The notes under the pieces: generated by a model
Told to the model about the DNA's origin: nothing
The model's database searches: none
The model's input: only the letters and a program-made list of their open reading frames with translations
Part shown: positions 5,975-38,540 of the stretch, one piece after another
Position numbering within the stretch: position 1 is the first letter of the stretch
Layout of the letters: each line of letters opens with the position of its first letter
Made by a program: the position numbers and the translations under genes
Source: Halococcus qingdaonensis
GTDB lineage: Archaea > Halobacteriota > Halobacteria > Halobacteriales > Halococcaceae
Assembly: GCF_024508235.1 (NCBI RefSeq)
Contig: NZ_CP101943.1
Location: 124,001 to 188,000 of the forward strand
Direction: 5' to 3'
DNA: 64,000 nucleotides

Positions 5975-6056
5975 AAGATGGCGCTGGATCTTCGTTCGAC
6001 GTGAATTCCCCATTACCCGCACATCACGCTCCACTTTCAAAAGTTTCCGGGAGCAT

Positions 6057-6491: not shown

Positions 6492-6530
6492 ATCGGCGAC
6501 TAGTTCGCTGGCGTATCAAAACTTCCGGCA

Positions 6531-6837
6531 TACGGTATACAGTCGCCGCTTCAGCATTGAAGCGAGCTACCGCCTCGCGGAGGAGACGACGATCTCGACG
6601 ACAACGACGGATCCGACGCGACGGCTACTGTTCGTCGTGATCAGCCTCTTGTTTCAGAACGCCTGGCGGTACTTACACTGGGAGTACGTGGCGACGCCTC
6701 GCCGTGGCGGGCGTCGCCTGTGGGAGTGGTCGTTTGAGGAGTTCATCCGCATGGTGACGCGGGCAGCGTGGACGGCCCTCGCGGTGCGTCGGGCCGTCCT
6801 CGCGAATAAGCCACCTGACGACCGCTTCGAGCGGTAA
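6531..6837 (+). pseudogene. ISH3-family transposase, C-terminal fragment
   Basis: This starts in YSRRFSIEASYRLAEETT, which holds the catalytic Glu region. It then runs through FQNAWRYLHWEYVATPRRGG to the normal terminus DDRFER. It is the distal piece of the gene whose N-terminus is at 3105-3458. About 185 bases of non-coding ISH3 end follow, up to the terminal repeat at 7022. Confidence 0.88.
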
Positions 6838-7064
6838 TCCACCGATCGGGATCGCCGTTCGGTGAGTGGCCACACCGTCGCGTCGGCGGCGTTCCGCCGC
6901 CGACTGCGACAGGTTTGATACTCTCGGTAGCAAACTGTCCTCCCCAGCAGCTATTCGACACCGATCCTCCATCAAATTCACATCTCAGAACGAGTCAGGT
7001 GGCGAACTTTGTGAGGTACTGACTATAGTGTAAATGTTTTGTGGCAGCCTCCCTATTGGTAGAC

Positions 7065-8126
7065 GTGACCGACGTAGTGGTAGTTGATCAAGGAACGCCC
7101 GGCGGACGAGACACATACACAAGGAATCTCGTTTCCATGTTACGGACGAACGGGTGGGAAGTCTCTACTATCCGGATGACTTCCGACGCTGACATCCAAA
7201 TATCCCTTCTGACCGGATCTGACCTCGAGTTTCTACTCCGATTCACCATACTCGGGTTAATTGGACAACTCCCGAACGCGAGTATTGTACACACGCAGCG
7301 GACCGTCGAGCTGCTCCCCTTCTACTTGCTCAGATCCGACGCACAAATGGTGGTCACATGCCACGGAAAAGACACTTTGGAGATGAGTTTACATCGACCC
7401 TGGTGGGTGGTTTCTCTGTACAACGCGGTCGAATCGATTGCAATACGATCTGCTGATCAGGTGATCTGTGTCGACCAGTCTACGAAACAGTACCTCCTCC
7501 AGAAACACGACCTACCTGACGACAGATTCGTTGTGATTCCGGTCGGTGCCGATGGAACCATTTTCAATCCAAGATCGCAGGCCGAGTGCCGTCATCAAAG
7601 CGATTATGAACTGGACGACGACATCCTCCTTTTTGCTGGAAGATTATCAGAAGTAAAGAATTTACCGTTACTCTTGAATACATTTGTCGAGGTACAGAGA
7701 CGTCGGGAGTGTTTCTTGGTCATTGCCGGTGACGGTGGACAAAGAGAAGCACTCGAGCGGTCGCTACACAAACGAGGCTTAAACGAGTTCGTCAACCTGT
7801 GTGGCACCGTTGAACACCACGTGTTAGCGGATTTGATGAACCTTGCCGACTGTCTGTTACTCACGTCTGATCATGAAGGAAGCCCGAATGTGGTCCGGGA
7901 AGCACGTGCCTGCGGTCTTCCGGTCGTCTCAACAGACGTCGGTGATGTAAGTCAGATTATTACGGATAACTCACAAGGATATGTTGTCACGGAGCGTTCA
8001 CCGGAAGTTATCGCTGATCGAGTTGAACTGGTCCTAGATGACAATTCGGCCTCTCGAAGTCCTGACCGGAAGGTGTTGTTCGAATTTACTTACAACCGTA
8101 TCGAGACATTGTACTTTAAGAATTAG
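7065..8126 (+). CDS. GT4-family glycosyltransferase
   Basis: This is a GT-B fold retaining glycosyltransferase of about 353 residues. The N-terminal acceptor domain carries GTPGGRDTYTRNLV. The C-terminal nucleotide-sugar domain has FAGRLSEVKNLPLLL and the E-x7-E type motif DHEGSPNVVREARACGLPVVSTDVG. It acts in the cytoplasm, adding a sugar from an NDP donor to a lipid-linked or surface glycan. GTG 7065 is preferred because VTDVVVVDQG matches the usual N-terminus; GTG 7041 is also in frame and only 18 bases from the ISH3 end. The insertion may therefore have replaced the native promoter. The C-terminus (YFKN) is short for the family, and the gene is moderately AT-rich. Confidence 0.85.
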   Translation: MTDVVVVDQGTPGGRDTYTRNLVSMLRTNGWEVSTIRMTSDADIQISLLTGSDLEFLLRFTILGLIGQLPNASIVHTQRTVELLPFYLLRSDAQMVVTCHGKDTLEMSLHRPWWVVSLYNAVESIAIRSADQVICVDQSTKQYLLQKHDLPDDRFVVIPVGADGTIFNPRSQAECRHQSDYELDDDILLFAGRLSEVKNLPLLLNTFVEVQRRRECFLVIAGDGGQREALERSLHKRGLNEFVNLCGTVEHHVLADLMNLADCLLLTSDHEGSPNVVREARACGLPVVSTDVGDVSQIITDNSQGYVVTERSPEVIADRVELVLDDNSASRSPDRKVLFEFTYNRIETLYFKN

Positions 8127-8742
8127 CAATAATTGCAAGGCGAGGACGTTTATTCGTCACACGGAAGATTTGTAGCGATCAGTCAGTATTTTGTCTGAAG
8201 ATTTATGGAATCTCTGCTGGCTGAACGAACCACCGCCATCGATATAGTTATTTGGGTAGAATATCTGCTGATACGCCTGATCCGAGAATCGCCGGAAGGC
8301 GGTGCTGTCCATCCTCATGCGGTCGGTGCTAGAACGGTGCTGTCTGTGGTCTCGTAGTGATAGCAGTTGCTCATGATTGCGATCTAACCGCAGTGGAGAG
8401 ATATCACTCAAGTGTCTCTCACGCAGGTACTCCTATCGAATCATACACCTCCTCTTGGTTGTATATCTGGTAGCGATCACTCCGGGACGCCAGCGCGTGA
8501 GGAAGAGAAACACCTATGCGGGCTTTCTCGGTTGTCGCCTGCGGCGGCAGCCGGGCTGTAACGCCCAGTATTCGGCTTCCTTCGCCCATAGACCAATCAC
8601 ATACACGTGCTCTCGCACGGTTTACTGCTCGGTCTCTTGCGCCCCATACTTTCCTCACGCTCTCTAGGGATAGCCACTCGTTATCGCCTAAGGATTCGTC
8701 CGAACCAGCAGGCGCTACCGTCTCCCGCGTCAGCCGGAAATC
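8127..8742 (+). other. No confident gene
   Basis: I see only short, unconvincing frames. On the minus strand 8160-8310 reads as a plausible but unrecognised peptide (AFRRFSDQAYQQIFYPNNY). It may be debris of an AT-rich glycan gene. The right part (about 8660-8742) probably belongs to the left end of the ISH8-like element that follows. Confidence 0.5.
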
Positions 8743-10119
8743 ATGGACCGATGGCTCAATATTCTCGGTCAAGAACTCCGGTATCTGCTCCCACCACGGT
8801 CGGTGCGCGAGCACGCTCGCGCTACCGACCTCGTTGAACGCAACCGATTCATCGACGCCTTCCCGTTCTTCTGGTCGTTCGTCATCGGCACTACCCAATC
8901 CGACGGATCTCTTGCTGCCGTTCAAGACCTCTACAAGGCTTTCACGGGAGACTCCGTAGCATACTCAACCGTCCAGCAGTGGGTCACAGCTGATCTCACC
9001 GAGCTACTTACCGACATCTGCGGCTACATCGGCGTTGAGCTTGGGCAGACGGAATCAGCGCTCGAAAGCCGCTTCGAGCGCTTCCGAGATGTCTTCATCT
9101 CGGATGGGACCATCTGTACGCTCTCGGCGGAGGCTTTCGAGGAGTTTCCCGGATTAGGCGACGATCACGCTGGAGCGAAGCTCCACGTGATCGAATCACT
9201 CGCTTCGCGGGCACCGATTTTCTCATCGATCACCGACGCTCGTACCCAAGAAACCACGCAGCTCCAGGTTGATGACTGGGTCGATGATTCCCTGCTTCTG
9301 TTCGACCTCGGCTACCTTGACTACGCGAGGTTAGCACGGATCGACCGCAATGGCGGCTGGTTCGTGAGCCGACTCAATGTCGACGCCAACCCCGAAATCA
9401 TCGACGAACTTCGGACCTGGTGTGGTGATACGATCAATCTGGAGGGCACGCACCTCCAAGAGCTGCTGCCCGATCTCTATCGGCAGATCATCGATCCGAC
9501 GGGGACAGTCGGTGCGGATCGGAACGATCCGCACCTTCCCTACGATGTACGAGTCGTCGGCGTCCGCCACGAAGACGACGAGGATGATCACCACACGGAG
9601 GAAGTCGAGGTTGATCACGACTATCACCTGTATGCGACGAATCTCCCGGTAGACGCGTACGCGCCGCGAGAACTCGCGGCGCTGTACAGCAATCGCTGGA
9701 GCGTGGAAACGGTCATCGACGAGCTGTAATCAGTGTTCGAGTTGGACGAGATGACGGTGCGACGGGAGGCAGCGGTGGAGTGTTTCATGATGGCAGCGCT
9801 GTTGATGGTGCTGGTGAGTCGGTATCGGCTCCGGCGGGTACGAGCACGGCTCGGGCCCGCCTCACAGCGATCAGTCGAAGAGGAAGAGCGCATCGAACCG
9901 GTGAGGTTTTCGAAGCGAATCCAACTGTTTAGCGGTGATCTGCTGCGGATATTGGCTGAACAGCTCGGGTATGGGTGGGACGGAGCCGGGTCCGCGATCG
10001 TCGAGGGAGCGATCGACCCAAACGTCGATCGCCACGCGCTCACGGAGCGAGTGGCTCACGGAAGCGTCGATCCGAGCCTGCGAAACGCGGGTGAACTGGC
10101 GACGATCCGGCCCGGCTGA
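8743..10119 (+). pseudogene. IS4-family (ISH8-like) transposase with internal stop
   Basis: The frame has the ISH8-type layout: an N-terminal region, VFISDGTICTL (first Asp), LLLFDLGYLDYARLARIDRNGGWFVSR (second Asp) and YSNRWSVETVIDEL (Glu). An in-frame TAA at 9727-9729 then replaces the Lys expected from the intact relative at 11284-12591 (RWAVELLFRELKTLYELDE). The frame stays open for another 129 codons to 10119. A single base change (AAA to TAA) explains the break. Element ends are not clear; GCCACTC near 8672 and GAGTGGC near 10152 could be parts of degenerate terminal repeats. Confidence 0.85.
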
Positions 10120-10415
10120 CGGTCGTCAGCCGAGCCGGGAAGCTTCGTGTTGAGTGGCAACATTGCCGATTCGGCGCGTTTCTGAAAGGAAACCGACTTA
10201 AAATCAGTTAACTCCAGCAATATCGATCTTGATTAGCCCCTTCGTTCCCTATTTTTGAGAATATCTACAGCTATCAGCAGGCCAGATTCCGCGTAGAACG
10301 CTCATTCGGACCTAAGGCGATAACCAGTGCTTGCAGACTGGTTTTGCGATGAGGTGCCGTCTGAATGCCTCGGACAATCTGTTTTTCAGGGTGTTAATGA
10401 AGATCCAACCTCCAG

Positions 10416-11160
10416 GCACTGCTAACTTAGACCGGCAGCTTCGATCGGCGGTTGATTGTCAAGAGCTTGGTGACTCCGGAGGTGATTGTAGTAATAGGCG
10501 TAGGCAGTCAGCCAGCGCTGGCGCTTGGCTGACTGCCGTTCCATGTCTCGTGGAACCGTGCGATCCGCATCGTGAACGTCTGAAACAGCTTTTCGACGAT
10601 GTTGCGGTCAGTGTAATCGAGGTGACCGCCCAGATCGGTCTTTGCAAGGGCGGTGAGGTAGCCTATACCGTCGACGAGAAACACCGCGTCGAGACGCGGT
10701 GTTTCTCTTTCAATTCGCGGAGAAACGACGTTGCTGGGTTGGTTCCACGGTGTTGAGAAAGTCGTGCGTGAAGCACGACTTTCGAATCGATATCGATCGC
10801 CGCATACAGCCAGAATTCACGTTCTTCGGCCAGCTGAACCTGTTTTTCGTCGACAGCAACGCGGTCAGGTTCGGCGGTGAACGTTTGCTCGTGAGACTCG
10901 GCGAATGACTGGCACCAGTTGCGGATAGCGGGGCGGCTGCGGTCGACGCCGAACCAGCCGAGCATGTCGCGGATTTCGGCAAGTGAGGCGACTGAGGCAT
11001 GCAACGCGCACGCCAGCCGGATCAGGCCGGCTGGCGTGCGCTCCCCGTCCAAAAGCAGTACAGTGCTGGCGTCCTCATCTGCCAACCGGAGTTCCTCTAT
11101 CATAGGCCTATCATGTATGGAGGAACTTCACCCACTTCAGCCGACTAAGTTAACAGTGCC
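10416..11160 (-). mobile_element. IS6-family element
   Basis: The terminal repeats are GGCACTGCTAACTTAG on the left and its inverse (with C to T at one position) on the right. GGCACTG is the signature start of IS6-family elements. The element is 745 bp. Immediately outside are AACCTCCA (10408-10415) and AACCTCTA (11161-11168), an 8-base target duplication with one mismatch. The transposase inside is broken, so the element would need a partner in trans. Confidence 0.88.
10422..11103 (-). pseudogene. IS6-family transposase, two frameshifts
   Basis: The first part is open from MIEELRLADED and includes RPAIRNWCQSFAE and the first catalytic Asp in RVAVDEKQVQ. The frame is lost at about 10690, where KEKHRVS should continue into AVFLVDGIGYLTAL. 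It is lost again at about 10525, where GSQPSA should continue into QRWLTAYAYYYNHLRSHQAL. Each break is consistent with a one-base deletion. The rest carries the second Asp and the final Glu region, and ends at TAG 10422-10424 inside the terminal repeat. It is inactive. Confidence 0.85.
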
Positions 11161-11199
11161 AACCTCTAGGAATTTTGGACAATGAATATTAATCGTCCT

Positions 11200-12600
11200 C
11201 ATCCGTCTTTAGCTAAGCGCTAAACCGCGTGACTACGGCTGGAATCGAAGTCGGTTCATGAACGGAATGAGGAGGAGTTCGGTGTGACCGACGAACCCTC
11301 CTCGGGCCGAATTGAACAGCGGCTCACTACGCTCTTTCCATCGACGGCTCTCGAAGACCACGCCGAGGCAGTCGGCGTGGTCGAACGCGACAGCAAGTTC
11401 CAGGTTCCAGCGATGGTCTGGGCGCTCGTGTTCGGCTTCGCCGCTGGCGAGAGCCGAACACTCGCCGCCTTCCGTCGCGCGTACAACGCTACTGCGGACA
11501 AGACGCTCTCACCCGGTGGTTTCTATCAGCGGTTGACACCGCTGTTCGCCGCGTACCTTCGCAACCTCGTCGAGTTCGCGCTCGACGAGGTTGCTGTCCC
11601 CCACACTGTCAGTGACGAGTTCGACCAATTCAGGGACATAATGATTGCCGATGCAACCGTTCTGCGATTGCATCGGTTTCTACGCGAACAGTACCGAGGT
11701 CGCCGAGAGGAGCAGGCTGGAGCGAAGCTCCACCTGCTCCACAACGTCACCGATCGAACCATCGAGAAGCTCTCCATCACCGGCGAACGTCCCCACGACA
11801 GCACCGAGTTCAAGACCGGATCGTGGCTGAAAGGACGGTTGCTGATCCTCGATTTGGCGTACTTCAAGTTCCGTCGCTTCGCTCGGATCGACGAGAACGG
11901 CGGTTACTTCGTGAGCCGCCTCAAGCGGAATACGAAACCGGAGATCGTCGCAGAACTGCGCGAATGGCGCGGTCGCGCCATTCAGCTGGAAGGCGAGCAG
12001 GTCTTCGAGATCGCGGAGGATCTCCACCGCAAATACGTCGACGTCGAGGTTGAGGTGGAGTTCAGACGCGGGCTGTACGCGGGCACGCGCTCGTGGGATA
12101 CGAAGCGGTTCCGCGTCGTCGGCGTCCGTAACGAGGACGCCGACGACTACCACTTCTCCATCACGAATCTCCCGCGAAAGTGGTTGTTGCCGGCGGATAT
12201 AGCTACGATGTACCGTTGCAGGTGGGCGGTGGAATTGCTGTTTCGTGAGCTGAAGACGTTGTACGAACTCGACGAGTTCGACACGGCCAACCCTGCGGTA
12301 GTGGAGATTCTGCTGTATGCGGCGGTGCTGACGCTGTTGGTGAGCCGCGAGTTGCTGGAGTTGGTGATTGAGCACGCGGACGATGAGGCGGTGTTCCCCC
12401 CGGAACGCTGGGCGGCGACCTTCCGGTCGCACGCCCAGCGGATCCTCAAGCGACTCAGCAACTATCTCGGCTACTCGCCACCGCCGCTGTTAGAGCGGAT
12501 GGCAGCCGACGCACGGAAGATCCATCAACAACGCCCAATCCTACAGGAACGGTTCGCTACCGCCGCTCAATCCACCGCTGGAGTTAGCTAAAGACGAATG
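11200..12600 (+). mobile_element. Complete ISH8-like IS4-family element
   Basis: This 1401-bp element has 17-base inverted ends (CATCCGTCTTTAGCTAA on the left, one mismatch on the right). A perfect 10-base target duplication TAATCGTCCT lies at 11190-11199 and 12601-12610. Long duplications of this kind are characteristic of the ISH8 group. It interrupts an AT-rich reading frame whose tail is at 12602-12805. Confidence 0.93.
11284..12591 (+). CDS. ISH8-like IS4-family transposase
   Basis: This 435-residue transposase is intact, starting at GTG 11284. Its DDE residues lie in MIADATVLRLHRF, LLILDLAYFKFRRFARI and YRCRWAVELLFRELKTL. The last contains the Y-x2-R-x3-E-x6-K signature of the IS4 family. 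The stop overlaps the right terminal repeat. The sequence is complete and shows no damage, so it could supply activity to the related broken copy at 8743-10119, although the two differ substantially. Confidence 0.92.
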   Translation: MTDEPSSGRIEQRLTTLFPSTALEDHAEAVGVVERDSKFQVPAMVWALVFGFAAGESRTLAAFRRAYNATADKTLSPGGFYQRLTPLFAAYLRNLVEFALDEVAVPHTVSDEFDQFRDIMIADATVLRLHRFLREQYRGRREEQAGAKLHLLHNVTDRTIEKLSITGERPHDSTEFKTGSWLKGRLLILDLAYFKFRRFARIDENGGYFVSRLKRNTKPEIVAELREWRGRAIQLEGEQVFEIAEDLHRKYVDVEVEVEFRRGLYAGTRSWDTKRFRVVGVRNEDADDYHFSITNLPRKWLLPADIATMYRCRWAVELLFRELKTLYELDEFDTANPAVVEILLYAAVLTLLVSRELLELVIEHADDEAVFPPERWAATFRSHAQRILKRLSNYLGYSPPPLLERMAADARKIHQQRPILQERFATAAQSTAGVS

Positions 12601-20130: not shown

Positions 20131-21099
20131 GATTATGATGGCATCGCTCTGACGGGGGCAGGGATGAATGCTACAATAATAGCGATGGGAGTGGGAGCGA
20201 ACGTCGATGCTATTCAATTCGGCCCAGTTGATGAACAGACCCTTTTTCCCATTCATCCAAGCGGTTCAATATAATGGGCGCAAAAACCAAAATTCGTCAG
20301 GGAATTTCTTGGTCACGGATTACAGTGGCGCAAACAGAATCACAAACGCTCATATGAGAGAAGTATTCCCCGTAGGATTTGCAGAAGACGGGTTCCATCT
20401 GACGAAAGCCTTTGGTTTCCAGATTGAGAACTGTCTCCCCGAAGATATGGGAGGGTCGGGGATTACTATCGGTACTGGGACGAGTTCTCATATTCATTTC
20501 GAAAAAATCTATTCGGCGCATAATGATAGGTATGGAGTAAAGTTTTATGACAATAGTAGCGGTATAAATGCTGATATTGATATGACGGCAATAGTCGCTG
20601 ATAATGCTAAAGGGGGCATTGGTAGAGACGGCTATAGGTGGAGGTCATCATACTAACAATTCTTTAGAATTTAATGCGAGAGGTAATGAGAGTCACGGAG
20701 TTGAGATTGGCAATGGTGTGAGAAGAAGCGATATTAAAATAATGGAAAAACAACGCTGGAGACTTGCTACATGACACTTCAAACCCGTCTTATTCGTCCA
20801 GTAACAATATAACTGTTGCACTTAACAAAGATACGACTATTGATGTGAATAACCCACGGAATATCATCAATGGCGTTTCACGGGTCCCCTACAAACCCAG
20901 AACTCGATACCCTTGGGGCAGTTCGGGGCAGGCGAAAATCGCATACGATATGGGAATTATGCTATATGACACGCAAAATGATGACTGGTATCTCCCGTTG
21001 GCTCCCTCTGCGACGAACAATTATATGAAAATCAATGGGACGAAATCAACCATTTCGCAACTATCATTTGCTATGGTGATGGTAGACCGCTCCCAATAG
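20131..21099 (+). pseudogene. Beta-helix surface protein, 3' fragment, several frameshifts
   Basis: After the IS the frame continues DGIALTGAGMNATIIAMGVGAN to about 20270. It shifts to YNGRKNQNSSGNFLVTDYSG and FQIENCLPEDMGGSGITIGT (to about 20630), then to IGGGHHTNNSLEFNARGNES, then to NAGDLLHDTSNPSYSSSNN, and ends at 21099. The repeated short strands rich in Asn, Gly and Ser are typical of right-handed parallel beta-helix proteins (pectate-lyase-like) displayed on cell or virion surfaces. At least three frameshifts plus the IS show long decay. The 3' end overlaps the convergent GT87 gene by 36 bases. Confidence 0.7.
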
Positions 21100-22233
21100 C
21101 ATGACCGCTATACCATAAAGCGGGACACTCCCAACTGTAAAGAGAAGTTCTCCGAGTTCCAATAGTGGGCCACTGACAATCGCGGAATAGATTTCAAATC
21201 TGAAGTTCGAGATGATCAACAGTGAACCCGCCGCCAAAATCACGTACTCGGTTGTGTTTTCAACGATATATAGGAGTACAAATAGCGGAAAAATCACGAA
21301 CTCAAGGTATTCTTTGTAAGCCACCATCGTTGGGATGAGTAAAACCCAGAACAGAAGGTGCATATCACCAATCAGGCCGTCAGTCTCATAGGCTAAATAA
21401 CCTACAACGCAGAGCATGAACATCATTGCTATTACTGATAGAGCTGACCCTCCAAAGTCCAATAGTTGCGATAATGGACGGAGAAGCGAGACAGCTATCG
21501 CGTCTACAGGGATGCCTTCAGCAGGGACGCGGCCCTCGGAATAACTGAATACCATTGCTACGTATCTCTCGGTCATTCCAACACTGACCAGCAGGTTCAG
21601 CACTACTGCAACCCCTCCAAACACCACACAACCGACAACAGCACGCCAGCGTTTCTTGGCGACAAACCATATTCCGCAAGGTGGGAGGAATAGTTTGAAC
21701 AGTGTCGAAAAGACAAAAAGGGTGCTGGCAGCAATTTCTCTTCTCTCATAGGCCATGACAGCAGCTAACGTCACGAATAATGTCAGAAAGACATTGATGT
21801 TTCCGTTCCGAATACCACCAATTGTGAGGATTGATGCGATGCAAAATAGGGACAGTAGTACAGAATCCACCCAAGACAGTTTCACATCGTAGCGTCGGAG
21901 AAAGCGCACTATCAACTGTGAGAGTAAAATTCCAGCTCCGATCTGGAGAATTGCCACGGCTAAATACGCCATCCCCCACGTTGGAAAGATCGCTAATGGG
22001 AGGAGGATCAGGAGTGTTAGCGGCGGGTAAAGGAATGGGAGTGGATAGGTTCCCACATCGGTCCCATATACGGGACCGCCTGTTAACCAGTCCTTCACGG
22101 CGAAATAATAGACCTTGAAATCACCGCCGAAGCCCAAATCCAATATTGACAACTGGTAGAATATTGATGCCACACCTGCGAGGATGCCGAAGACAAGAAC
22201 TAACCGAGTGATTCTTCGTTTAGATGCTATCAC
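21064..22233 (-). CDS. GT87-family (DUF2029) membrane mannosyltransferase-like protein
   Basis: This 389-residue integral membrane protein has about 10 helices and belongs to the GT-C type glycosyltransferases of family 87 (PF09594). Supporting features are the first outer loop with GGDFKVYYFAVKDWLTGGPVYG (the conserved Asp of GT87), the following YPPLTLLILLPLA, and GGIRNGNINVFLTLF, which resembles the family G-x-GQ-x-N motif. Such enzymes use polyprenyl-phosphate-linked sugars outside the cytoplasm. It is AT-rich like the rest of the island. The acceptor is unknown. The 3' end overlaps the decayed beta-helix gene. Confidence 0.82.
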   Translation of the reverse strand: MIASKRRITRLVLVFGILAGVASIFYQLSILDLGFGGDFKVYYFAVKDWLTGGPVYGTDVGTYPLPFLYPPLTLLILLPLAIFPTWGMAYLAVAILQIGAGILLSQLIVRFLRRYDVKLSWVDSVLLSLFCIASILTIGGIRNGNINVFLTLFVTLAAVMAYERREIAASTLFVFSTLFKLFLPPCGIWFVAKKRWRAVVGCVVFGGVAVVLNLLVSVGMTERYVAMVFSYSEGRVPAEGIPVDAIAVSLLRPLSQLLDFGGSALSVIAMMFMLCVVGYLAYETDGLIGDMHLLFWVLLIPTMVAYKEYLEFVIFPLFVLLYIVENTTEYVILAAGSLLIISNFRFEIYSAIVSGPLLELGELLFTVGSVPLYGIAVMLLGAVYHHHSK

Positions 22234-29361: not shown

Positions 29362-29889
29362 ATGATGATGCCCTGGGGCCATCTCGCGTTTGGCTACCTC
29401 CTCGTGTCGGCGCTGATGCGAGTGGTCCCACGATGGGAGATGGATCGCACGACGGTGTTGCTCGTTCTGCTCGGGACGCAGTTGCCGGATCTCATTGATA
29501 AGCCACTGGCGTGGACGTTTCACCTCCTCCCGAGCGGTCGCACGCTCGCACATTCGCTGTTCGCGATGGTGGCCGTCTGTGCGCTCGTTGGCTACTACTA
29601 TCGCCGCCGCAGCCGTCTCGATCTCGGCGTTGCCTTCGCCGTCAGCTACGGCTCCCATCTGATCGGCGACGGATACAGCTTCCTCCTGTCGGGCGAGTAC
29701 GCTTATCTCTCCTCGCTGGGCTGGCCACTGCTCCCACCGCCACCGTTCGGCGATGAGGGAACCTTCCTCACGCACATCCCCGATTTCGCCTTCACGCCCG
29801 GGCTTCTGACACAGATTACGCTTCTGGCCATCCTATACGTCGTCTGGATCGAAGATGGCGCCCCCGGGCGAGAGCTGTTCTCTCGTTGA
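29362..29889 (+). CDS. YdjM-like membrane-bound metal-dependent hydrolase (DUF457)
   Basis: This 175-residue protein has about four helices. It carries the family histidines and aspartates MPWGHLAFGYLL, GTQLPDLIDKPL, SGRTLAHSLF and YGSHLIGDGYSF, which are expected to bind a metal at the membrane face. The group is named for E. coli YdjM, but its substrate is unknown. Several Met codons open the frame; ATG 29362 to 29368 are equivalent. It sits 72 bases after the ferritin-like gene, on the same strand. Confidence 0.8.
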   Translation: MMMPWGHLAFGYLLVSALMRVVPRWEMDRTTVLLVLLGTQLPDLIDKPLAWTFHLLPSGRTLAHSLFAMVAVCALVGYYYRRRSRLDLGVAFAVSYGSHLIGDGYSFLLSGEYAYLSSLGWPLLPPPPFGDEGTFLTHIPDFAFTPGLLTQITLLAILYVVWIEDGAPGRELFSR

Positions 29890-30008: not shown

Positions 30009-33000
30009 GTGAGCTACACCCGCACGCTGCTTTCCCGGTGGTCTCGCCGCGATCGGCTCACCGTCGTCGTGGTCGCGGTCACGACCGCCTTTCTGGTCGG
30101 GACCACCCTCCTGTTGGCCGCGGCCGGCGCACAGACGGCCACGATCGCCGACGAGCTGGACACGACGGCGACAGTGTCGTACGAGGGCTCCTATGGGGCC
30201 GCACAGGCTAACGCGACAACCGACGAGATCGTGTTGCCGACGGCCACGCTGCGTCACAACGACTCCCTACAGCGGTTCGTCGGCGTCCCGCCGAACACGA
30301 CCAACGAACTCGGTGACACCACCGTCGGCTGGCAGCGAGCGACGCTCCCTGCGCCGAACGATACCGTTCAGGGGCCAGTCGCGACGCGGACCGCACAGCG
30401 ATTTGCAACCTCCACAGGCCCCGCCCGCCTGACCGTTCGGCCACACGCCACGAACGCCTCGCTGTTCCCGACCGAGTGGTACGTCGCGAACGCCTCGACG
30501 GTGCGAACGGTGAGCGACGGCGACACGGAGGCGCTCGTCATCCATCCCACCCGATCGGCGAGCGGGTTGCTGTCGGTGCCCGAAACCGGCTCGCCGATTG
30601 TCGCCGCGCTCGTGTTCCTGTTCGCCGGGATGCGCGAGCTGTTGGCGGTGTTGCTCGCCGCGACGCTCGGTAGCGCGGTGCTCGTCGTCGTGGTCGTCTA
30701 CAACGTGCTCCGAATGACCGTCAGGGACCGCCGGCGGGCGATCCGCGTGATCCGCTCGACCGGCGGCACGCCACGGCGGATCCTCGCGCTGTTCGGCGTT
30801 CGGGCGGGGCTGATCGTCACGATCGGTGTCGCGCTTGGCTACGCCGTCGGGATGATCACCACGAACGCCGTCGTCAACGTGGCGGTTTTTGCCGGGTTAC
30901 CGATATCGCTGACACCGACGTTGACGCCGGTCGCCATCGCCGCGCTGGCGGTCATCCTCCCGGGACTCGTGCTTGCGGGCGTGCTCGCGGGCGTCCTGGC
31001 GGCGTGGTCCGCGGCCACCGCGCCGCCGGCCCGGATCGGGGCTACAACCGGACGGACACAGAGCGATCGATCGACGGGCGGCCGCCGGGCGGCGCTGCGC
31101 CCCACGCTGCTCGCCGGCCGCGCCATCGTGCCGACGGCGCTGACGCTCGCCGTGTTCGTTGTCGTCGTCGTGCTCGTCGTCTCGCTGATGGGTGCGGTCG
31201 CGCCGCTGTCGACCCAAAGTGAGGGGACGATCGCCGAGGCCGACGCGCCACACGTCCTCAACAGCCGCATCGATACGAACTACGTCCCCGTGCTTCGAGA
31301 GCGCGGTGTCGCCGCGAGCCCGGAGATCATCCTGCCACAGGCGCTCGATGGCGAGCCGTTCCTCGGACTCGGGGCCAACTACACGGCTTTTGCCGCCGTC
31401 ACGAACGCGAGCCTCGTCGAGGGACGTCCGCCCCGAACCTCGGCGGAGGCCGTCGTCGGCAGCGACCTCGCCACGACGCTCGACATCGATGTCGGCGAGT
31501 CGCTCCCGCTCGGTGGGAGTTTCTCGCCGGCGACGACACGCGTCACCGTCGTCGGGACGTTCGACGCCACCGGCGTCGCCGACGACCAGCTCGTCGTGCC
31601 GCTGTCGACGGCCCATCACCTCGCGCTCGACTCCGGGACCGTCCAGTATATCCGGACCGAGCGAACCGCCCTCCCCGACGGCGCCGGAGCGAACGACACC
31701 GGGAGCGCCGGCGACGCGATCAGCGTGACCGGCGTCTCCATACCCCGTGTCGTCGAGGCGAACCGTTCGTTCGCGGTCACGGCGAACGTCGAGAACCTCG
31801 AGGCGACGAACGTGACGCGGCCGATCACCGTCCGCGTCGGCAATCGGACGCGAACGCGTTCGGTGACGCTCGGCCCGGAGGCAACCGACGAGATCTCGAT
31901 TCCGGTCCGGCTGCCGACGGCGGGCAACAGAACGCTGCGCGTCGACAGCTACACGCAGTCCGTACGCGTGCTTCCACGTCGTTCGCTGTGGCTCCCGACC
32001 GAGTTACCGGGGCGTGCCCCGCCGAACGCGACGCTGTACGTACCCGTGGTGACGCCGGCCGAACAGCCCGTCGAGAACGCATCCGTCGCCGTCGCCAACC
32101 GAACGTGGACCACCGGCGACAACGGCGTCGCACGGGTCACGCTCCCGACCGCACCCGGCGAATACACGCTGCGTGCGAGCAAGGGTGAGCGCCCGGCGGC
32201 GACACAGAACCTGACGGTCACGACGTCGGCCCAGCGCAGGCCCTCGGCCCGTCTTGCGATCACGCCGCAGACGGGAAGCGTGCTCGAACGCCCGGAGGCG
32301 ACCGTGACGGTCGCGAACCCCTGGAACCGGACGCTCACGCGGCGACTCACGCTGACGTCGCCGGTGACGACCCGCGAGCGAAACGTTACGCTCGAACCGG
32401 GAGCGACGACGCAAGTGACCGTCGAGCTGTTCGGCGGCTCTGAGCAGCGGGCCTCCCCCGGCACCTACACCGTGCGCTTGCAGTCGAACGAATCGAGCGG
32501 ATCGCTCGCCCGGAGCGAGTACACCGTCGAGGGCGACCAGCGACTGTTCTCGGCGCTCGCGAGCAACGGCCAGTACTCGGGCGGTGCCGGCATCGGGCAA
32601 GCGATCCGCAGCGTGTTCGGCAACGTCCAGTTGCTGTTCGTGACGATGTTGGTGCTCGCCGCGCTCACCACGATCGGGACGACGACTGCAACCTTCACAC
32701 AGGTCATCCACGCCCGCCGGCGTGCCATCGGCATCCATCGGGCGACCGGCGCGTCCCCGCGACGCGTGCTCACGACCGTGCTCCGTGACGTCTGTCTGCT
32801 CTCGGTGCCGGCCGTCGCCGTCGCGCTCGCCCTCGGCGTCGGGACCGTCCGGCTGCTCGGACAGCTCGATCTGCTCACGCTGTTCGGGATCCGGCTCTCG
32901 ACGGCGATCCCGGGCCCTGTACTGTTGGGCACCGCCGTCGGCGCGTTCGCCCTGTCGGTGCTCGGAGCCGTCCTGGCGACGCTCCCGTTTCTCACCCGTC

Positions 33001-33062
33001 CGCCCACCGACCTGCTCGACGGGACGGTCTCCGAGCCCACGACGCGGGAGGATGACCGATGA
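30009..33062 (+). CDS. Giant FtsX-type ABC transporter permease with Ig-like inserts
   Basis: About 1017 residues from GTG 30009, preceded by a weak context; a longer in-frame start at 29934 lacks support. The order is: one helix (about 15-38), an outside domain (to about 190), a three-helix FtsX core (about 200-345), a further helix (about 370-395), a MacB-like periplasmic domain (about 400-560), three outside Ig/CARDB-like domains (about 571-655, 670-727 and 748-843) and a second three-helix FtsX core (about 864-1007). It resembles MacB/LolC-class mechanotransmission permeases that do not transport through a pore. The large adhesin-like insert is unusual. The stop overlaps the next gene by four bases, and the partner ATPase is at 34801. 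Confidence 0.85.
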   Translation: MSYTRTLLSRWSRRDRLTVVVVAVTTAFLVGTTLLLAAAGAQTATIADELDTTATVSYEGSYGAAQANATTDEIVLPTATLRHNDSLQRFVGVPPNTTNELGDTTVGWQRATLPAPNDTVQGPVATRTAQRFATSTGPARLTVRPHATNASLFPTEWYVANASTVRTVSDGDTEALVIHPTRSASGLLSVPETGSPIVAALVFLFAGMRELLAVLLAATLGSAVLVVVVVYNVLRMTVRDRRRAIRVIRSTGGTPRRILALFGVRAGLIVTIGVALGYAVGMITTNAVVNVAVFAGLPISLTPTLTPVAIAALAVILPGLVLAGVLAGVLAAWSAATAPPARIGATTGRTQSDRSTGGRRAALRPTLLAGRAIVPTALTLAVFVVVVVLVVSLMGAVAPLSTQSEGTIAEADAPHVLNSRIDTNYVPVLRERGVAASPEIILPQALDGEPFLGLGANYTAFAAVTNASLVEGRPPRTSAEAVVGSDLATTLDIDVGESLPLGGSFSPATTRVTVVGTFDATGVADDQLVVPLSTAHHLALDSGTVQYIRTERTALPDGAGANDTGSAGDAISVTGVSIPRVVEANRSFAVTANVENLEATNVTRPITVRVGNRTRTRSVTLGPEATDEISIPVRLPTAGNRTLRVDSYTQSVRVLPRRSLWLPTELPGRAPPNATLYVPVVTPAEQPVENASVAVANRTWTTGDNGVARVTLPTAPGEYTLRASKGERPAATQNLTVTTSAQRRPSARLAITPQTGSVLERPEATVTVANPWNRTLTRRLTLTSPVTTRERNVTLEPGATTQVTVELFGGSEQRASPGTYTVRLQSNESSGSLARSEYTVEGDQRLFSALASNGQYSGGAGIGQAIRSVFGNVQLLFVTMLVLAALTTIGTTTATFTQVIHARRRAIGIHRATGASPRRVLTTVLRDVCLLSVPAVAVALALGVGTVRLLGQLDLLTLFGIRLSTAIPGPVLLGTAVGAFALSVLGAVLATLPFLTRPPTDLLDGTVSEPTTREDDR

Positions 33063-34729
33063 AGCGGCGACACCGGTACGTGGTCGTCTGTCTCGCGGTC
33101 TTCGCCGTCGCGCTCGCGTTCCGGACGCTCACGCTGTACTGGAGTCCCTTCCCCGCGACGCTCGATGGGTTCGACTACGCCGCCCTCGCGCGGGACACGC
33201 TCGCCAGCGGCCAGCTCCCACTGGGTCGTCTGCGGGCCGACAACTTCGTGTTCACCGGCGGCCTCGCGCTCGTCAGTGCGCTCACCGACAGCCGGCCGGT
33301 CACGATGGCACAGCCGGTGATTGCCGTGCTCGGTGCGGGCTCCTGTCTCACCGCCGTCGCCGTCGTCCGGCGGCTGGGACGCCGGCTCGCGCTCTCGGGT
33401 CGTCGCGTTCGGTGTGCCGCCGTCGTCGCCGGGTTCGGGCTCGCAGCCGAAGGGCTCTATCTCCGGCGGACCGGCGTCGCCGACGAGGAGGCGATCGGAC
33501 TGTTGCTCGTTCCGTTGCTCGCGATCACGTTCCATCGCGCCCTCCGGACGCGCCGGCCGGCGTGGATCGTTGCAGCCGCCGTCATCGCCATTGCCTTCCC
33601 GTTGTTGCACACCTTCAGCACGCTCATCGCGGCGCTCACGCTTCTCGGCGTGCTGGCGACCCAGCTTCTCCGCGTGCCGAGCACGCGACTGGCGACGGTC
33701 GGGCTCGTCTTTGTCGGCGGGTTCTGGGCGTATTTCGCGCTCTACTACGAGGTCGCGGCACGGGTCGGCCTCACCGTGCCGTACGTCGGGCGCGTGCTCG
33801 CCTTCCCAGGCCTGTTCATCGCGTGGCTGATCGTGCTGGTCGTCGGCGTCCTCTGGGTACGCTCGGCACAGCCACGCCTCCAGCGGGCGGGGCTGCTCGG
33901 GGCCGTCGCGGTCGGCTATGCCGTTCTCGTCGCGAACGTCTTCGTGCCGGTCTTTCCGGGGACGGTGACGACGCCGCTGCCGATCCTGGCGCTCGCGTCG
34001 TTGTTCGTTGTCCCGGTGGTGTTGGCGAGTTCTCGACTGCCCGACGTGACGGCCGATGCGGGCGACGGTGCCGTCGTCGTCGCGCTGCTTGCCGCGCCAG
34101 CCGTCCAGACGTTCTTCTCGCTGACCGCCTCGCTCACGCCGGAGTTCTACGGGACGGTGATGCGAACGCAGACGTTCGTCCATTTCCCGGTGTTCGTTCT
34201 CGCCGCGCTGGCGGCCGTTGGACTCCCGGCCGCCGGGCGACTCTCGCTCGGGCGGCTGGGACTCCCGGGTCGGCTCGGGTCGGTGCGGACGATCGCCGTG
34301 ACCCTCTTACTACTGAGTGCGGCCCTGACCGCACCGCTCGCGTTCGTCGATCTCGATACGGCGACGTATCCGAGCACGACGACCCACGAGGAGTTCGCCG
34401 CCGCGTCGTTCACTGCGACACACGTCCCCGGACGGTGGACATCGGACGATCCGTCGACGCGGATCGGGTCGCTCTACTACCCCGGCCGTACCCAGGCCTC
34501 GCAAGCCCCGGTCGGAAGCTGGCTGACCGGCGGCTCGCCGCCGGACTGTCCGGTGCTGTCGGCCCGGTCGTGGACGACGAGCGGCGCACATCTGTTCCCG
34601 CTGGCGCCGGCGACGATCCCGCCGACCCGCTATCGCCACTGGCTCGCCGACCGAAACCTCGTCTACACCACCAGCGGTGCCGATCCGTTCTCGCTGACGC
34701 GACCGACCACGTCGTCGTCACAGTGTTGA
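33059..34729 (+). CDS. Polytopic membrane protein, GT-C glycosyltransferase-like
   Basis: This 556-residue protein has about 12 helices and a soluble C-terminal tail (about 440-556). The first outside loop reads PFPATLDGFDYAALARDTLASGQLP, with acidic residues placed as in the DxD-like loop of GT-C enzymes. GVADEEAIGLLLVPLL and FAVALAFRTLTLYW are also seen. No exact family is recognised. It is translationally coupled to the FtsX permease (ATGA overlap at 33059) and followed by the ABC ATPase. This ties a putative lipid-linked-sugar transferase to an FtsX/ABC machine. The function is inferred only from fold and context. Confidence 0.65.
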   Translation: MKRRHRYVVVCLAVFAVALAFRTLTLYWSPFPATLDGFDYAALARDTLASGQLPLGRLRADNFVFTGGLALVSALTDSRPVTMAQPVIAVLGAGSCLTAVAVVRRLGRRLALSGRRVRCAAVVAGFGLAAEGLYLRRTGVADEEAIGLLLVPLLAITFHRALRTRRPAWIVAAAVIAIAFPLLHTFSTLIAALTLLGVLATQLLRVPSTRLATVGLVFVGGFWAYFALYYEVAARVGLTVPYVGRVLAFPGLFIAWLIVLVVGVLWVRSAQPRLQRAGLLGAVAVGYAVLVANVFVPVFPGTVTTPLPILALASLFVVPVVLASSRLPDVTADAGDGAVVVALLAAPAVQTFFSLTASLTPEFYGTVMRTQTFVHFPVFVLAALAAVGLPAAGRLSLGRLGLPGRLGSVRTIAVTLLLLSAALTAPLAFVDLDTATYPSTTTHEEFAAASFTATHVPGRWTSDDPSTRIGSLYYPGRTQASQAPVGSWLTGGSPPDCPVLSARSWTTSGAHLFPLAPATIPPTRYRHWLADRNLVYTTSGADPFSLTRPTTSSSQC

Positions 34730-34800
34730 ATCACAGCAAGCCGCCGTCGAGTAGTTCGATCTCTGGTGGGTTTATGCGTCCGTTGGTCGAACGTCGATCA

Positions 34801-35475
34801 ATGGCTTCCCTCGCCCTCGACGCGACCGACATCGGCGTGACGCGCGGTACCGAGGCGATACTACACGACGTCTCGATCGCCGTGCCGTCCGACGGGCGCA
34901 CGCTGGTCCAGGGCCCGAGCGGCGCCGGGAAGACGACGCTGTTCGACGTGCTCGGGTTGCTCGACCGCCCGACGAGCGGGACGCTCACCATCCAGGAGAC
35001 AGCGACCGACGCATTATCGGAGTCCGAGCGGGCCCGCCTCCGGCGCGAGACGCTCGGGTTCGTCTTCCAGGAGTTCCAGCTCGTCGCGGATCTCACGGCC
35101 TGGGAGAACGCCGCGCTGCCCCAGGACCACACCGGCGAGCGCGACGCCGACTGGCTGGGGATGCTGTTCGACGAGCTCGCCATCGCCGACCTCGCCGAGC
35201 AGTATCCGGCCACCCTCAGCGGTGGCGAGAAACAGCGCGTCGCGATCGCCCGTGCGCTGGCCAACCGGCCCGCGATCGTGCTCGCCGACGAGCCGACCGG
35301 CCAGCTCGACCCGGACACCGCCGATCGGGTGCTCGAACTGCTGCTCGACATCCACGAGACCGCAGAGACGGCGCTGCTCACGATCAGTCACGACCGGCGG
35401 CTGCGCTCGGCGTTCGACGAGATCGTTGCCCTCGAAAACGGCACGACGGTTCCGACGTCGGGTGACCCCGCTTAA
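34801..35475 (+). CDS. ABC transporter ATP-binding protein (LolD/MacB type)
   Basis: This 224-residue ATPase starts at ATG 34801. It has Walker A GPSGAGKTT (38-46), the Q-loop VFQEFQLVADLTAWEN, signature LSGGEKQRVAIARAL (about 139-153), Walker B IVLADEPTGQLD (about 159-170) and the H-loop TISHD. Its closest class powers FtsX-type permeases, and the only FtsX permease nearby is the 1017-residue protein upstream in the same run. Energy from ATP would be transmitted to the outside domains of that permease. An intergenic gap of 71 bases separates it from the GT-C-like gene. Confidence 0.92.
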   Translation: MASLALDATDIGVTRGTEAILHDVSIAVPSDGRTLVQGPSGAGKTTLFDVLGLLDRPTSGTLTIQETATDALSESERARLRRETLGFVFQEFQLVADLTAWENAALPQDHTGERDADWLGMLFDELAIADLAEQYPATLSGGEKQRVAIARALANRPAIVLADEPTGQLDPDTADRVLELLLDIHETAETALLTISHDRRLRSAFDEIVALENGTTVPTSGDPA

Positions 35476-35586
35476 TACGGTTCCACAACGACGATCGCCG
35501 CCAGAGCGTCGCCGACCGATCGTCGGGGAATCCAGCTGAACACCCCACCGCAAGCGAGCGGCGTATGCCGCGAGCAGGGAGGGAGT

Positions 35587-36276
35587 TCAGGCTGCCGCCA
35601 CGGTGTAGTTGCCAGTCCGTGTGGGCCCGCCGTCGATCGTGAGGTCGAACGAATAGTTGCCGGGGGTGGTCGTCGTGACGCCGCCGTCGATGACGGCGAC
35701 GATCTCGTCGCCCGCAGCGACGCTTTCGTTGCCATCGAGTGCGATCGTGAGCGTTCGGCCGTCGTCGGCGCGTCGGACTTCATCAACGTTGGCGGCGAGG
35801 CTCTCGCTCGTCTCGTTGCCGGGCAGGACGCCACCCGTGTCGATCCCGGCCGTGTCGACGTCGGCGGTCGTGACGTTACCGAGATCGAGCCCGCCACCCG
35901 TATCGACCGTGACGTTCTCGAGTCCGTCGCTGGCCGACGCCTCGTCGACCGTCGCCCGGACGAGCAGCGTAGCGTTCGTCGTGTTCGCGCTCGCGGGGGC
36001 GACCGAGAGGTTCACCGCCTCGGTCTCCGCCGGCGCGGCCGTGGACGTGGCTTCACCATCGCCTTCGGTGGCGGTTCCGGGCCCCATCTCAACGCCGTCG
36101 GCCGGCGTGGCCGTGCCCGACGTCACGCCGGTCGTCTCACTGTTGTCGGGACTGCCGCCACAGCCGGCGAGGGCCACCAGCAGCACCATCACACCGACGG
36201 CGAGCATCCGTCGTTTCGAGCGATCGGTCGAGAGCCGTTCGGACAGCCAACGGGAACGTATCTTCACCATTAACAT
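35587..36276 (-). CDS. Secreted lipoprotein of unknown function
   Basis: This 229-residue protein has a Tat-like lipobox signal: SKRRMLAVGVMVLLVALAGC, with the lipidated Cys at residue 39. It is followed by a Thr/Ser/Gly-rich spacer and a beta-rich domain (about 90-229) with many N-glycosylation sequons (NTTNAT, GNETSES, GNYSFD, GNYTVA). An internal ATG at 36207 would remove the Arg pair, so the longer start is preferred. It lies convergent to the ABC operon and divergent from the DUF4129 gene, in a cluster of envelope genes. No family is recognised. Confidence 0.75.
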   Translation of the reverse strand: MLMVKIRSRWLSERLSTDRSKRRMLAVGVMVLLVALAGCGGSPDNSETTGVTSGTATPADGVEMGPGTATEGDGEATSTAAPAETEAVNLSVAPASANTTNATLLVRATVDEASASDGLENVTVDTGGGLDLGNVTTADVDTAGIDTGGVLPGNETSESLAANVDEVRRADDGRTLTIALDGNESVAAGDEIVAVIDGGVTTTTPGNYSFDLTIDGGPTRTGNYTVAAA

Positions 36277-36359
36277 GGATACGCGTCGCTGGCGGTGATA
36301 TAATACTGCTGGTTCGGGGGAACGAAAGGTGTTTTACCCGATCACCGAGTGGATCGAGT

Positions 36360-38540
36360 GTGACCGCCGAGAAACGGACGAGAACGCGATCGCTGACGCC
36401 CCTCGGCTGCGGTCTCGTGATCGCCATCGTCGTTCTCTCGGCCATCGCTTTGCCGGTCGGGACGGCGCTCGGACACACCGACGACGTCGGGATCCGCCAG
36501 GTCGCGAACAACTCCAGCGTCCAGCAGGAGGACCCGCAAGCGGTCGACGACGACGGCAACGTCTCCGAGCTCCAGGGCGCGCTCTCCGATCGGCTCGGCG
36601 AGACGCTCATCGACTGTTCGGAGGGGCTTGAGGTCGGCAACTACGACGCCTGCAACCGATCGAAGGAGTACCCCGACTGGCTCGGCAAATACGTCAACGT
36701 CACCCGGAGCTCGGATTCGGAGACCAACAACACCGACGAATTCCAGGAAGCCAGGGACAATCAGACATCGTACACAAATGACGTCCAGCGCTTTCGCAAG
36801 ACCGTCGACCAGTACCGCACTGCACGCGAAAGCGGCCGGACCGAGCGTGCCCGCCGGCTCGCCCGTCGTGCTCAACGGCTCTCCCAACAGATCAACGAAA
36901 CCGGCGCTCGACTGACCGACGACTACCGCGCGATCGACAACGGTACGACACAGAACTTCTCGGCGGCGATCGCGACAACCAACGAGACCACCGAAAACGT
37001 CTCCGCGGTCGCCGACACGCTCAGCGTCGAGCAGTTCGTGAACACGACGGTCACGGCCTCGACGGCTGACAACCGGATCACGTTCAACGACTCACTCGTC
37101 GTGAGCGGCTATCTCAGAACGGCCAACGGCACGCCGCTTGCCAATCGTACCGTCGTATTGGAGGCCGACAACCGACTCCGACGGACTACCACTGACAAGG
37201 CCGGCCAGTACGTCATCACCTACCGTCCGGCGTTGCTCCCGCTCGATACGCGCCGGCTGACGGTGCGCTATCGACCGTCGACCCTGTCGATCTATCGGAG
37301 CAACCGGACAACCGTCCCCATCGATGTTCGCCAGGTGACGCCGACGCTCCAGGCGGAGACGACCCCCAAGACCGTTGGTTTCGACGAGCTGCTGTCGGTC
37401 ACCGGTCGCGTCGCCGTCAACGACAGCGGCGTCGGCTCCGTACCGGTCGCCGTCTCGATCGACGGCCAGGAGTTCACCCTCGCCGACGGCAGCCGCGTCC
37501 GGACGGGCTCCGAGGGCCGTTTCAAAATGGCTCACGAGCTCCCGGCCGACGTTGCCCCCGGCCGGCAACGCGTTCGTGTCTCCATGCCCCTCGAGAACCG
37601 GTCGGTCGCCAGAACGAACACGTCGATCCCGGTGACGATCACGCGGACACCGACGCAGCTGTCGCTCAACGCCACTCAGGAGTCGGTCAATGGCTCGGCC
37701 GTCGGCGGGCCGATCGTCCACGTCGAGGGCCAACTCAGCGCCAACGGAACGCCCGTCACGAACCAAACGGTAGCGGTCGGGCTGAACAACTCGACGACGT
37801 CCGTCACGACCGACGAGAACGGCAGCTACGACGCCAACGTTACGGTGCCCGAAGGCGTCTTCGCCGATCAGACGGGCACGACGATGGCGACGATCGGTGC
37901 GACCTTCGAGGGTGGAGAGACGAACCTCGAATCGTCGCGTCGTCACACGACCATCGAGCTGATGGTGCCAGCCCAGACGACCGGCCTCATCGAACAGCTC
38001 GTGGCCGCTTTCAGGACGCTCCCGATCAGCTATCAGCTGTTGCTCGGGCTCGGTATCGTAGTCGTGCTCGGCGCCCTTGGTTCGGTGCTCCGGCGATGGC
38101 TCGGCATCACCGAAGACGACACGGACGATGCCTCGTCGACGTCGGCGAGTGGGGCCACAGACAGCACCGACGACCCGCGCGAAGGGCTCAGAGCGCTGCT
38201 CAGGGCGGCCCGCGAGGAGCTATCCGCGGGTGATGCCGACGGTGCCGTCGGGTTCGCGTACACGGCCGTTCGACGAGTCCTGGGTCGCGATCCCGAACTC
38301 GGGGGCGCACGAACCCACTGGGAGTTCCTCGATGCGTGTATCGATCGTGGGCTCGGCGACCGACAGCTCGGGGCGCTCAGACGACTGACCGAACGCTACG
38401 AGCGCGCAACGTTCTCCCAGCGATCGGTCTCGACGGACACGGCCTCCTCGGCGCTTGACGATGCCCAGACGATGACCGATCCGGACGAGCAAGCATCGGC
38501 TGAGAACCCGGACTCAGATGTTGATTCGAGATCGGAGTGA
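36360..38540 (+). CDS. Ig-like repeat membrane protein with cytoplasmic DUF4129 domain
   Basis: This 726-residue protein starts at GTG 36360. A signal-anchor helix (about 14-36) leads to an outside helical domain (about 50-215). Three Ig/CarboxypepD-reg-like repeats follow (about 220-545), each with a GQYVITY, GRFKMAHEL or GSYDANVTV type strand. One membrane helix (about 553-578) leads to a cytoplasmic DUF4129 domain (about 603-700) containing GLRALLRAAREELSAGDADG and THWEFLDAC. DUF4129 proteins often sit near transglutaminase-like or MoxR/DUF58 genes, but none is visible here. With the adjacent lipoprotein and FtsX system it looks like part of an envelope-assembly cluster. Confidence 0.8.
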   Translation: MTAEKRTRTRSLTPLGCGLVIAIVVLSAIALPVGTALGHTDDVGIRQVANNSSVQQEDPQAVDDDGNVSELQGALSDRLGETLIDCSEGLEVGNYDACNRSKEYPDWLGKYVNVTRSSDSETNNTDEFQEARDNQTSYTNDVQRFRKTVDQYRTARESGRTERARRLARRAQRLSQQINETGARLTDDYRAIDNGTTQNFSAAIATTNETTENVSAVADTLSVEQFVNTTVTASTADNRITFNDSLVVSGYLRTANGTPLANRTVVLEADNRLRRTTTDKAGQYVITYRPALLPLDTRRLTVRYRPSTLSIYRSNRTTVPIDVRQVTPTLQAETTPKTVGFDELLSVTGRVAVNDSGVGSVPVAVSIDGQEFTLADGSRVRTGSEGRFKMAHELPADVAPGRQRVRVSMPLENRSVARTNTSIPVTITRTPTQLSLNATQESVNGSAVGGPIVHVEGQLSANGTPVTNQTVAVGLNNSTTSVTTDENGSYDANVTVPEGVFADQTGTTMATIGATFEGGETNLESSRRHTTIELMVPAQTTGLIEQLVAAFRTLPISYQLLLGLGIVVVLGALGSVLRRWLGITEDDTDDASSTSASGATDSTDDPREGLRALLRAAREELSAGDADGAVGFAYTAVRRVLGRDPELGGARTHWEFLDACIDRGLGDRQLGALRRLTERYERATFSQRSVSTDTASSALDDAQTMTDPDEQASAENPDSDVDSRSE

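Follow-up and report, generated by a model that had tools for sequence, protein, structure and literature searches.

ATP-binding cassette (ABC) systems of Type VII act at the membrane's outer face, and the partner protein sets their function, as the account of these systems in PMC12646458 describes. This study addresses a candidate system of this type in the haloarchaeon Halococcus qingdaonensis. The system lies in a stretch of 64,000 nucleotides (hereafter the window; G000:C1:124001-188000, contig NZ_CP101943.1) from a single-contig genome of 2.70 Mb. It consists of a double FtsX permease, a LolD/FtsE-like ATPase and a predicted membrane protein, here called GTC, which the links between sequence profiles place as a divergent member of the GT-C superfamily. 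Within surface-glycan clusters, a Type VII ABC machine and a new GT-C family are genuinely associated; the association runs through the order and has been re-formed repeatedly.

The closest analogue is YbbAP-TesA, which in the description given in PMC12646458 also has an internally duplicated FtsX permease with two outer regions, a separate ATPase and a dedicated enzyme partner at the outer face. Lipid extraction and presentation is proposed for it there, much as we propose it here. However, YbbP is described as having 10 transmembrane (TM) helices and a soluble esterase partner, whereas the permease of the window has 8 predicted TM helices, three extra immunoglobulin (Ig)-like domains and an integral-membrane, GT-C-like partner. 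No TesA-type esterase was noticed among the recurrent neighbour families, and no search was aimed at one. BceAB-BceS, as the same source presents it, likewise joins a Type VII machine to an integral-membrane partner and involves isoprenoid-phosphate lipids, but that partner is a histidine kinase and not a glycosyltransferase-like enzyme. LolCDE shares the LolD-like ATPase and the FtsX folds. It differs in that the permease here is a single duplicated chain, the ATPase scores under the LolD cut-off, and there is no sign of a lipoprotein cargo.

On the enzyme side, the nearest described proteins are PMT_2 and the other GT-C families, including AglB/STT3. GTC resembles them in its N-terminal module, whose first outer loop carries an invariant acidic residue, and in a collinear match to the PMT_2 profile. 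It differs from AglB/STT3 in lacking a Pfam STT3 match, in an AglB score no better than shuffles and, in the window protein judged by eye, in having no WWDYG motif. Unlike PMT_2 and STT3, GTC has its own conserved C-terminal region with W460, C497 and W505. A further system of relevance is the putative arCOG01314 (DUF4350) secretion system, to which the relevant passages of Makarova, Galperin and Koonin 2015 (PMC5898192) assign DUF4350, MoxR, vWA, Ig and DUF1616 proteins. In some relatives, DUF4350, MoxR, vWA/DUF58-like, DUF1616 and Ig proteins all stand beside the present system. However, the terms "FtsX", "permease" and "MacB" are absent from the main text of that paper, and the passages describing the module assign it no GT-C partner. 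We found no paper tying a haloarchaeal FtsX-like/MacB permease to glycosylation, GT-C or the S-layer in a literature coverage that excludes most subscription journals.

Linkage of GTC with the permease

The permease gene of the window (30009-33062, forward strand) encodes 1,017 amino acids with two FtsX domains and 8 predicted TM helices, and is followed by the GTC gene (33059-34729, forward strand; 556 amino acids, about 10 predicted TM helices). The stop of the first and the start of the second share 4 nt. The core of the original observation, a giant FtsX permease gene joined directly to a GT-C-like gene, is borne out. The ATPase gene (34801-35475, forward strand; 224 amino acids) comes next, and had been called the only nearby matching ATPase; this pairing is reasonable, because the genome's sole other FtsX-domain gene has an adjacent ATPase of its own. 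About 30 nt upstream of the ATPase start stands the element GGGTTTAT, common to the window (about 34767-34801) and to two loci of the same genus, L115 and L116. It is a candidate promoter of a leaderless transcript, and the ATPase may therefore be transcribed on its own. The other FtsX system (L195 7757-9850, reverse strand, and 9850-11016, forward strand, in G000:C1:434000-450000) has a 414-aa MacB-type permease right after its ATPase, with a divergent secreted protein nearby that looks LolA-like by eye.

GTC is present in 72 of 392 genomes sampled from the order, and 69 of these 72 have a permease match at E<=1e-20. Both searches cover 41 genomes, and in these a full-length permease occurs in 8/8 GTC-positive and 3/33 GTC-negative genomes, counts that are uncorrected for kinship. 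Linkage was counted on 78 GTC copies. The search had given 86 rows; seven of them were additional parts of broken copies and one was a fragment of 79 residues, and these were not counted. The permease lies directly upstream on the same strand in 45 of the 78 copies (gap -7 to 170 nt) and about 0.8 kb downstream, again on the same strand, in 15, with the ATPase in between in the loci that were read (L040, L132). A same-strand permease within 1.5 kb thus accompanies 60/78 copies, and 4 of the remaining copies have a permease within 20 kb. This part of the expected neighbourhood, the permease/GTC pair, recurs across the order.

The permease alignment excludes L069, which contains a stop codon. 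The permease tree consists of two clades. Clade 2 stands directly upstream of GTC in most lineages, while the window permease belongs to clade 1, whose members usually adjoin the ATPase with no GTC there. The clade-1-linked proteins (window, L004, L038, L040/L041) form one group in the GTC tree, set among the clade-2-linked ones, with a support of 0.716 for the whole group and 0.995 for the window's lineage. Three arrangements therefore exist: GTC after clade 2, GTC after clade 1 in the window's lineage, and GTC before the ATPase and clade 1, the order in L040/L041 being GTC-ATPase-permease. Because the trees tie GTC to both permease clades, its linkage has been kept or remade with a different paralogue. 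Additionally, broken GTC copies adjoin broken permease copies in two genomes (G209 C1:2807939-2812937; G157 C3:57292-58606), decaying side by side as if the pair were lost as a unit. Co-function of permease and GTC is well supported, and a physical complex may underlie it.

Identity of the proteins

The permease and the ATPase probably form a Type VII (FtsX/MacB-type) ABC transporter, which would work by mechanotransmission. The assignment rests on the FtsX domain, on a separate ATPase with full motifs, and on a duplicated 4-TM unit with a large outer region between helices 1 and 2. The two FtsX stretches match PF02687 with 73.2 bits against a cut-off of 25.5. The 8 hydropathy peaks are arranged as 1+3 and 1+3, with gaps at residues 38-211 and 399-872, and the predicted outer regions span about 40-205 and 400-870. 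The profile alignment of TM2-4 with TM6-8 identifies a duplication (P 1.4e-12), and every one of the 20 N-glycosylation sequons is located in one or other of these outer regions. Modelled by AlphaFold2 from two sequences, the second outer region (residues 400-872) contains two confident beta-sandwiches at about 570-655 and 675-737, with block values of the predicted local distance difference test (pLDDT) of 72-90, and a third at about 763-840 with low confidence (blocks roughly 43-59). Foldseek matches the model to macroglobulin and Ig tandem proteins in the PDB. The three Ig/CARDB-like domains first proposed can thus be kept as Ig-like, two firmly and the third at low confidence, while the CARDB assignment is unproven.

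Sequence matches of the permease in the PDB are LolC, LolF and, weakly, FtsX. The ATPase carries Walker A, Q-loop candidates, LSGGE, Walker B and the H-switch. It is nearest to LolD by NCBIfam and PDB, but at 175.7 bits against 307.75 for TIGR02211 it falls under the LolD equivalog cut-off; the earlier label of LolD-type is sound as a likeness and not as an equivalence.

GTC alone has no match in Pfam or NCBIfam and no relevant match in the PDB, so that the window protein by itself gave its GT-C-like label no Pfam support; the profiles of the family do support it. GT-C enzymes have an acidic residue in the first outer loop. In an alignment of 42 GTC family members (L039, from the same genome as L004, was left out), D36, just after TM1 in the first outer loop, is Asp in 41/41 letters, one sequence having a gap, and the acidic loop residue is accordingly kept in the homologues. 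E144, in the next loop, is acidic in 37/42 (33 E, 4 D, 5 Q), and H184, R369, W460 and W505 are invariant across the family. When the 42 members were scanned with Pfam, PMT_2 was found in 2 (best E 6.7e-4) and STT3 (PF02516) in 0/42. The majority consensus gave no PMT_2, its best GT-C match in Pfam being PMT_4TMC at E 3.4. In profile-profile comparison, GTC residues 5-204 are collinear with haloarchaeal PMT_2 at a score of 40.4, or 39.0 after removal of gapped columns, and 0/60 block shuffles reach the real score, the best of them standing at 26.8. Kinship with STT3/AglB was rejected: the AglB profile scores 37.7 over 50 columns and 3/60 shuffles reach this, so no STT3 relation is claimed.

A search of 294 genomes of the phylum with the GTC profile gave strong matches in 7, all of the same order, and weak ones in 3 outside it (G626, G482, G505). 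One weak match outside the order aligns with GTC at full length over 468 columns (E 3.1e-6) and itself reaches the PMT_2 gathering score. It is the PMT_2 profile match, together with this transitive match, that places GTC in the GT-C superfamily. The gene after the outside-order protein is DUF1616, and GT-type genes surround it, as judged from translations inspected by eye. Locus L190, outside the order, has two GTC-like proteins (3613-5616 and 6816-8714), one adjoining a DUF1616 gene; no ABC machine is nearby, and the association may be seen here in an older form. The name sodium/phosphate symporter, which RefSeq gives to relatives, was rejected, as the profile links go to GT-C families. A PDB profile search with the GTC family returned nothing relevant, and viral contigs contained no relatives of GTC or the permease.

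Gene neighbourhoods and competing explanations

Marker genes were scanned in 40 GTC loci (from the 42 aligned sequences, excluding the window and the short locus L010), in 19 permease loci chosen by permease match (20 regions, L043 being already counted), 4 of which also contain GTC, and in 20 control regions, most of them taken from carrier genomes at a distance of about 1 Mb. The GTC loci contain the permease in 34 cases, the ATPase in 25, DUF1616 in 17, DUF4350 and DUF58 in 11 each, relatives of the Ig/DUF4129-like protein in 10, MoxR and epimerase in 9 each, GT2 in 8, GT1 and YdjM-type (PF04307) in 7 each, and GT4 and UDP-glucose dehydrogenase in 6 each. In the permease loci the counts are 17 for the ATPase, 12 each for DUF4350 and MoxR, 9 for DUF58, 7 each for YdjM-type and the Ig/DUF4129-like relatives, and 0 for glycosyltransferase (GT) markers. 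The controls contain an ATPase-like gene in 5 cases, a sulfatase in 1 and an epimerase in 1; every other marker is at 0. In relatives, the system is associated with a DUF4350/MoxR/DUF58/DUF1616 module.

Plasmids of Haladaptatus salinisoli and H. halobius carry permease-GTC-GT2 with more glycosyltransferases, a flippase and sulfatase-like genes, and the H. salinisoli cluster also contains dTDP-rhamnose genes. In H. caseinilyticus, glycosyltransferases flank a stretch that reads DUF1616-permease-GTC-hypothetical-DUF4350-MoxR and continues with DUF58 and an Ig-repeat protein. A PGF-CTERM protein, of the archaeosortase substrate type, adjoins an FtsX-like permease in two Haladaptatus plasmids (L111 10416-11411; L112 10412-11428). 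In the window, GT1, GT2, GT87 and epimerase genes stand at 7-24 kb, 5-23 kb upstream of the permease, and the DUF4350 and MoxR genes of this genome lie about 84 kb upstream. The GT87 gene (21064-22233, reverse strand), of the GT-C superfamily, is within this glycan region. The region is rich in mobile elements, three DDE transposase genes surrounding a GT1 gene (4607-12591). Directly upstream of the permease is a gene for a YdjM-type membrane protein (29362-29889, forward strand; PF04307, E 3.2e-15).

Downstream of the ATPase, a lipobox protein with LAGC at residue 36 is encoded on the reverse strand (35587-36276), convergent with the ATPase and divergent from the gene that follows. The product of that gene (36360-38540, forward strand) is secreted and membrane-anchored; it has Ig/macroglobulin repeats and, at its C-terminus, a weak likeness to DUF4129. 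Its Ig repeats agree with what had been predicted, while its DUF4129 match, at 18.9 bits, is under the Pfam cut-off of 24.8. The idea of a single five-gene operon was dropped because the lipoprotein gene is antisense. This gene does follow the ATPase, as had been stated, but it is conserved there only inside the genus. A scan of the window and 41 loci matched just 2 open reading frames to the lipoprotein, which is therefore outside the conserved core.

These facts bear on the improbable explanation that the permease and ATPase are a LolCDE-like extractor that takes the neighbouring lipoprotein, or other lipoproteins of archaea, out of the membrane. The nearness of the ATPase to LolD, the LolC and LolF matches of the permease, and a lipobox protein beside the ATPase in the window, L038, L115 and L116 would all agree with it. 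However, the ATPase lies far under the LolD cut-off, the lipoprotein is scarcely found among the loci, and haloarchaea have no outer membrane as a destination. An even slighter chance is left to a defence system or an antimicrobial or toxin efflux system of MacB or BceAB type, standing near glycan genes by chance. The combination of an FtsX permease and a LolD-like ATPase is common in systems of this sort, and relatives are annotated plainly as ABC transporter permease or FtsX-like permease. The neighbour families that recur are, however, DUF1616, DUF4350, MoxR, DUF58 and glycan genes, and neither an adaptor nor a sensor kinase nor a peptide gene was noticed among them.

The strongest competitor, with a substantial minority share of our belief, is that GTC and the ABC machine are separate tools within the same surface gene islands. 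On this view the machine is part of a DUF4350/MoxR/DUF58 module for secretion or membrane remodelling, and GTC is part of the glycan cluster. The permease loci, with their ATPase, DUF4350 and MoxR genes and no GT marker, fit this, and in L037 GTC sits in a glycan cluster apart from the permease. The tight, repeated linkage of GTC to either permease clade in three arrangements speaks against it, as does the decay of both genes together in G209 and G157. Several observations weigh against joining GTC and the machine in one unit. The same-genus loci L115 and L116 run YdjM-permease-ATPase-antisense lipoprotein, with about 60 nt between permease and ATPase and no GTC at the window's GTC site, and the permease also occurs without GTC in G005, G011 and G015 (GTC-negative) and in G054 (absent from the GTC positives); the ABC machine can therefore work without GTC. 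Seven GTC copies are on the same contig as a permease at more than 20 kb, 4 are on another contig (G007 among the examples), and a Natrononativus copy stands among metabolic genes. Three of the 72 GTC-positive genomes, with 3 of the 78 copies, have no permease match, a number small enough to count against separate tools as well. The two-sequence AlphaFold2 model of GTC has a pLDDT of 38. Ahead of the Ig domains, the second outer region (fragment residues 1-169), where a Porter/Sabre fold would be sought, is modelled at below 50, and no match between the two outer regions was obtained. Gene neighbourhood alone is not a complex.

Proposed role in surface-glycan assembly

On balance, permease, ATPase and GTC are probably one functional unit in surface-glycan assembly. 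The permease and ATPase would exert force at the membrane's outer face without pumping across it, and GTC would be their dedicated partner in this lineage, with a dolichol-phosphate-linked sugar or glycan as donor. Driven by ATP, an ATPase dimer would close the single-chain permease, and this closing could lift the lipid-linked donor or product from the outer leaflet for GTC. Alternatively, the outer regions and the TM bundle of the permease might drive a conformational change in GTC. The setting would be the assembly or attachment of a variable surface glycan. That the proteins form a complex, which lipid carries the donor and in which direction the work is done are all inferred. This specific mechanism of extraction or activation is doubtful, being rather more apt to prove wrong than right, and the explanation as a whole, a Type VII machine serving GTC in surface-glycan assembly, is the best we can offer while holding it tentatively, with somewhat less than even confidence. 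The step in glycoprotein or lipoprotein maturation originally suggested is narrowed by these results to its glycan side, which the gene neighbourhoods favour; the antisense, genus-restricted gene gives the lipoprotein side no such standing.

A bolder version is a long shot: GTC could be an AglB-independent ligase or oligosaccharyltransferase, or a Wzy-like polymerase, powered or gated by the Type VII ABC machine. If true, this would be an ATP-driven glycan-transfer complex, unlike known GT-C enzymes, none of which, to our knowledge, needs an ATPase. In Haloferax volcanii, the enzyme attaching the AglB-independent N-glycan is stated as unidentified in the relevant passages of PMC3871713 and PMC8241124, so the GTC family is a testable candidate for this kind of step in lineages carrying GTC. 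PMC5898192 mentions HVO_2052, a PMT/STT3-like protein of the second pathway in H. volcanii, and this protein competes with GTC as a candidate for the AglB-independent oligosaccharyltransferase role.

Our finding may also supply an ABC engine for the secretion module predicted in archaea; the relevant passages of PMC5898192, which describe that module, were found to name none. What defines a Type VII ABC machine is its partner, and a membrane enzyme of GT-C fold would be a new class of partner. For the haloarchaea that carry it, the system suggests that ATP drives a so far undescribed step in the making of their sugar coat.

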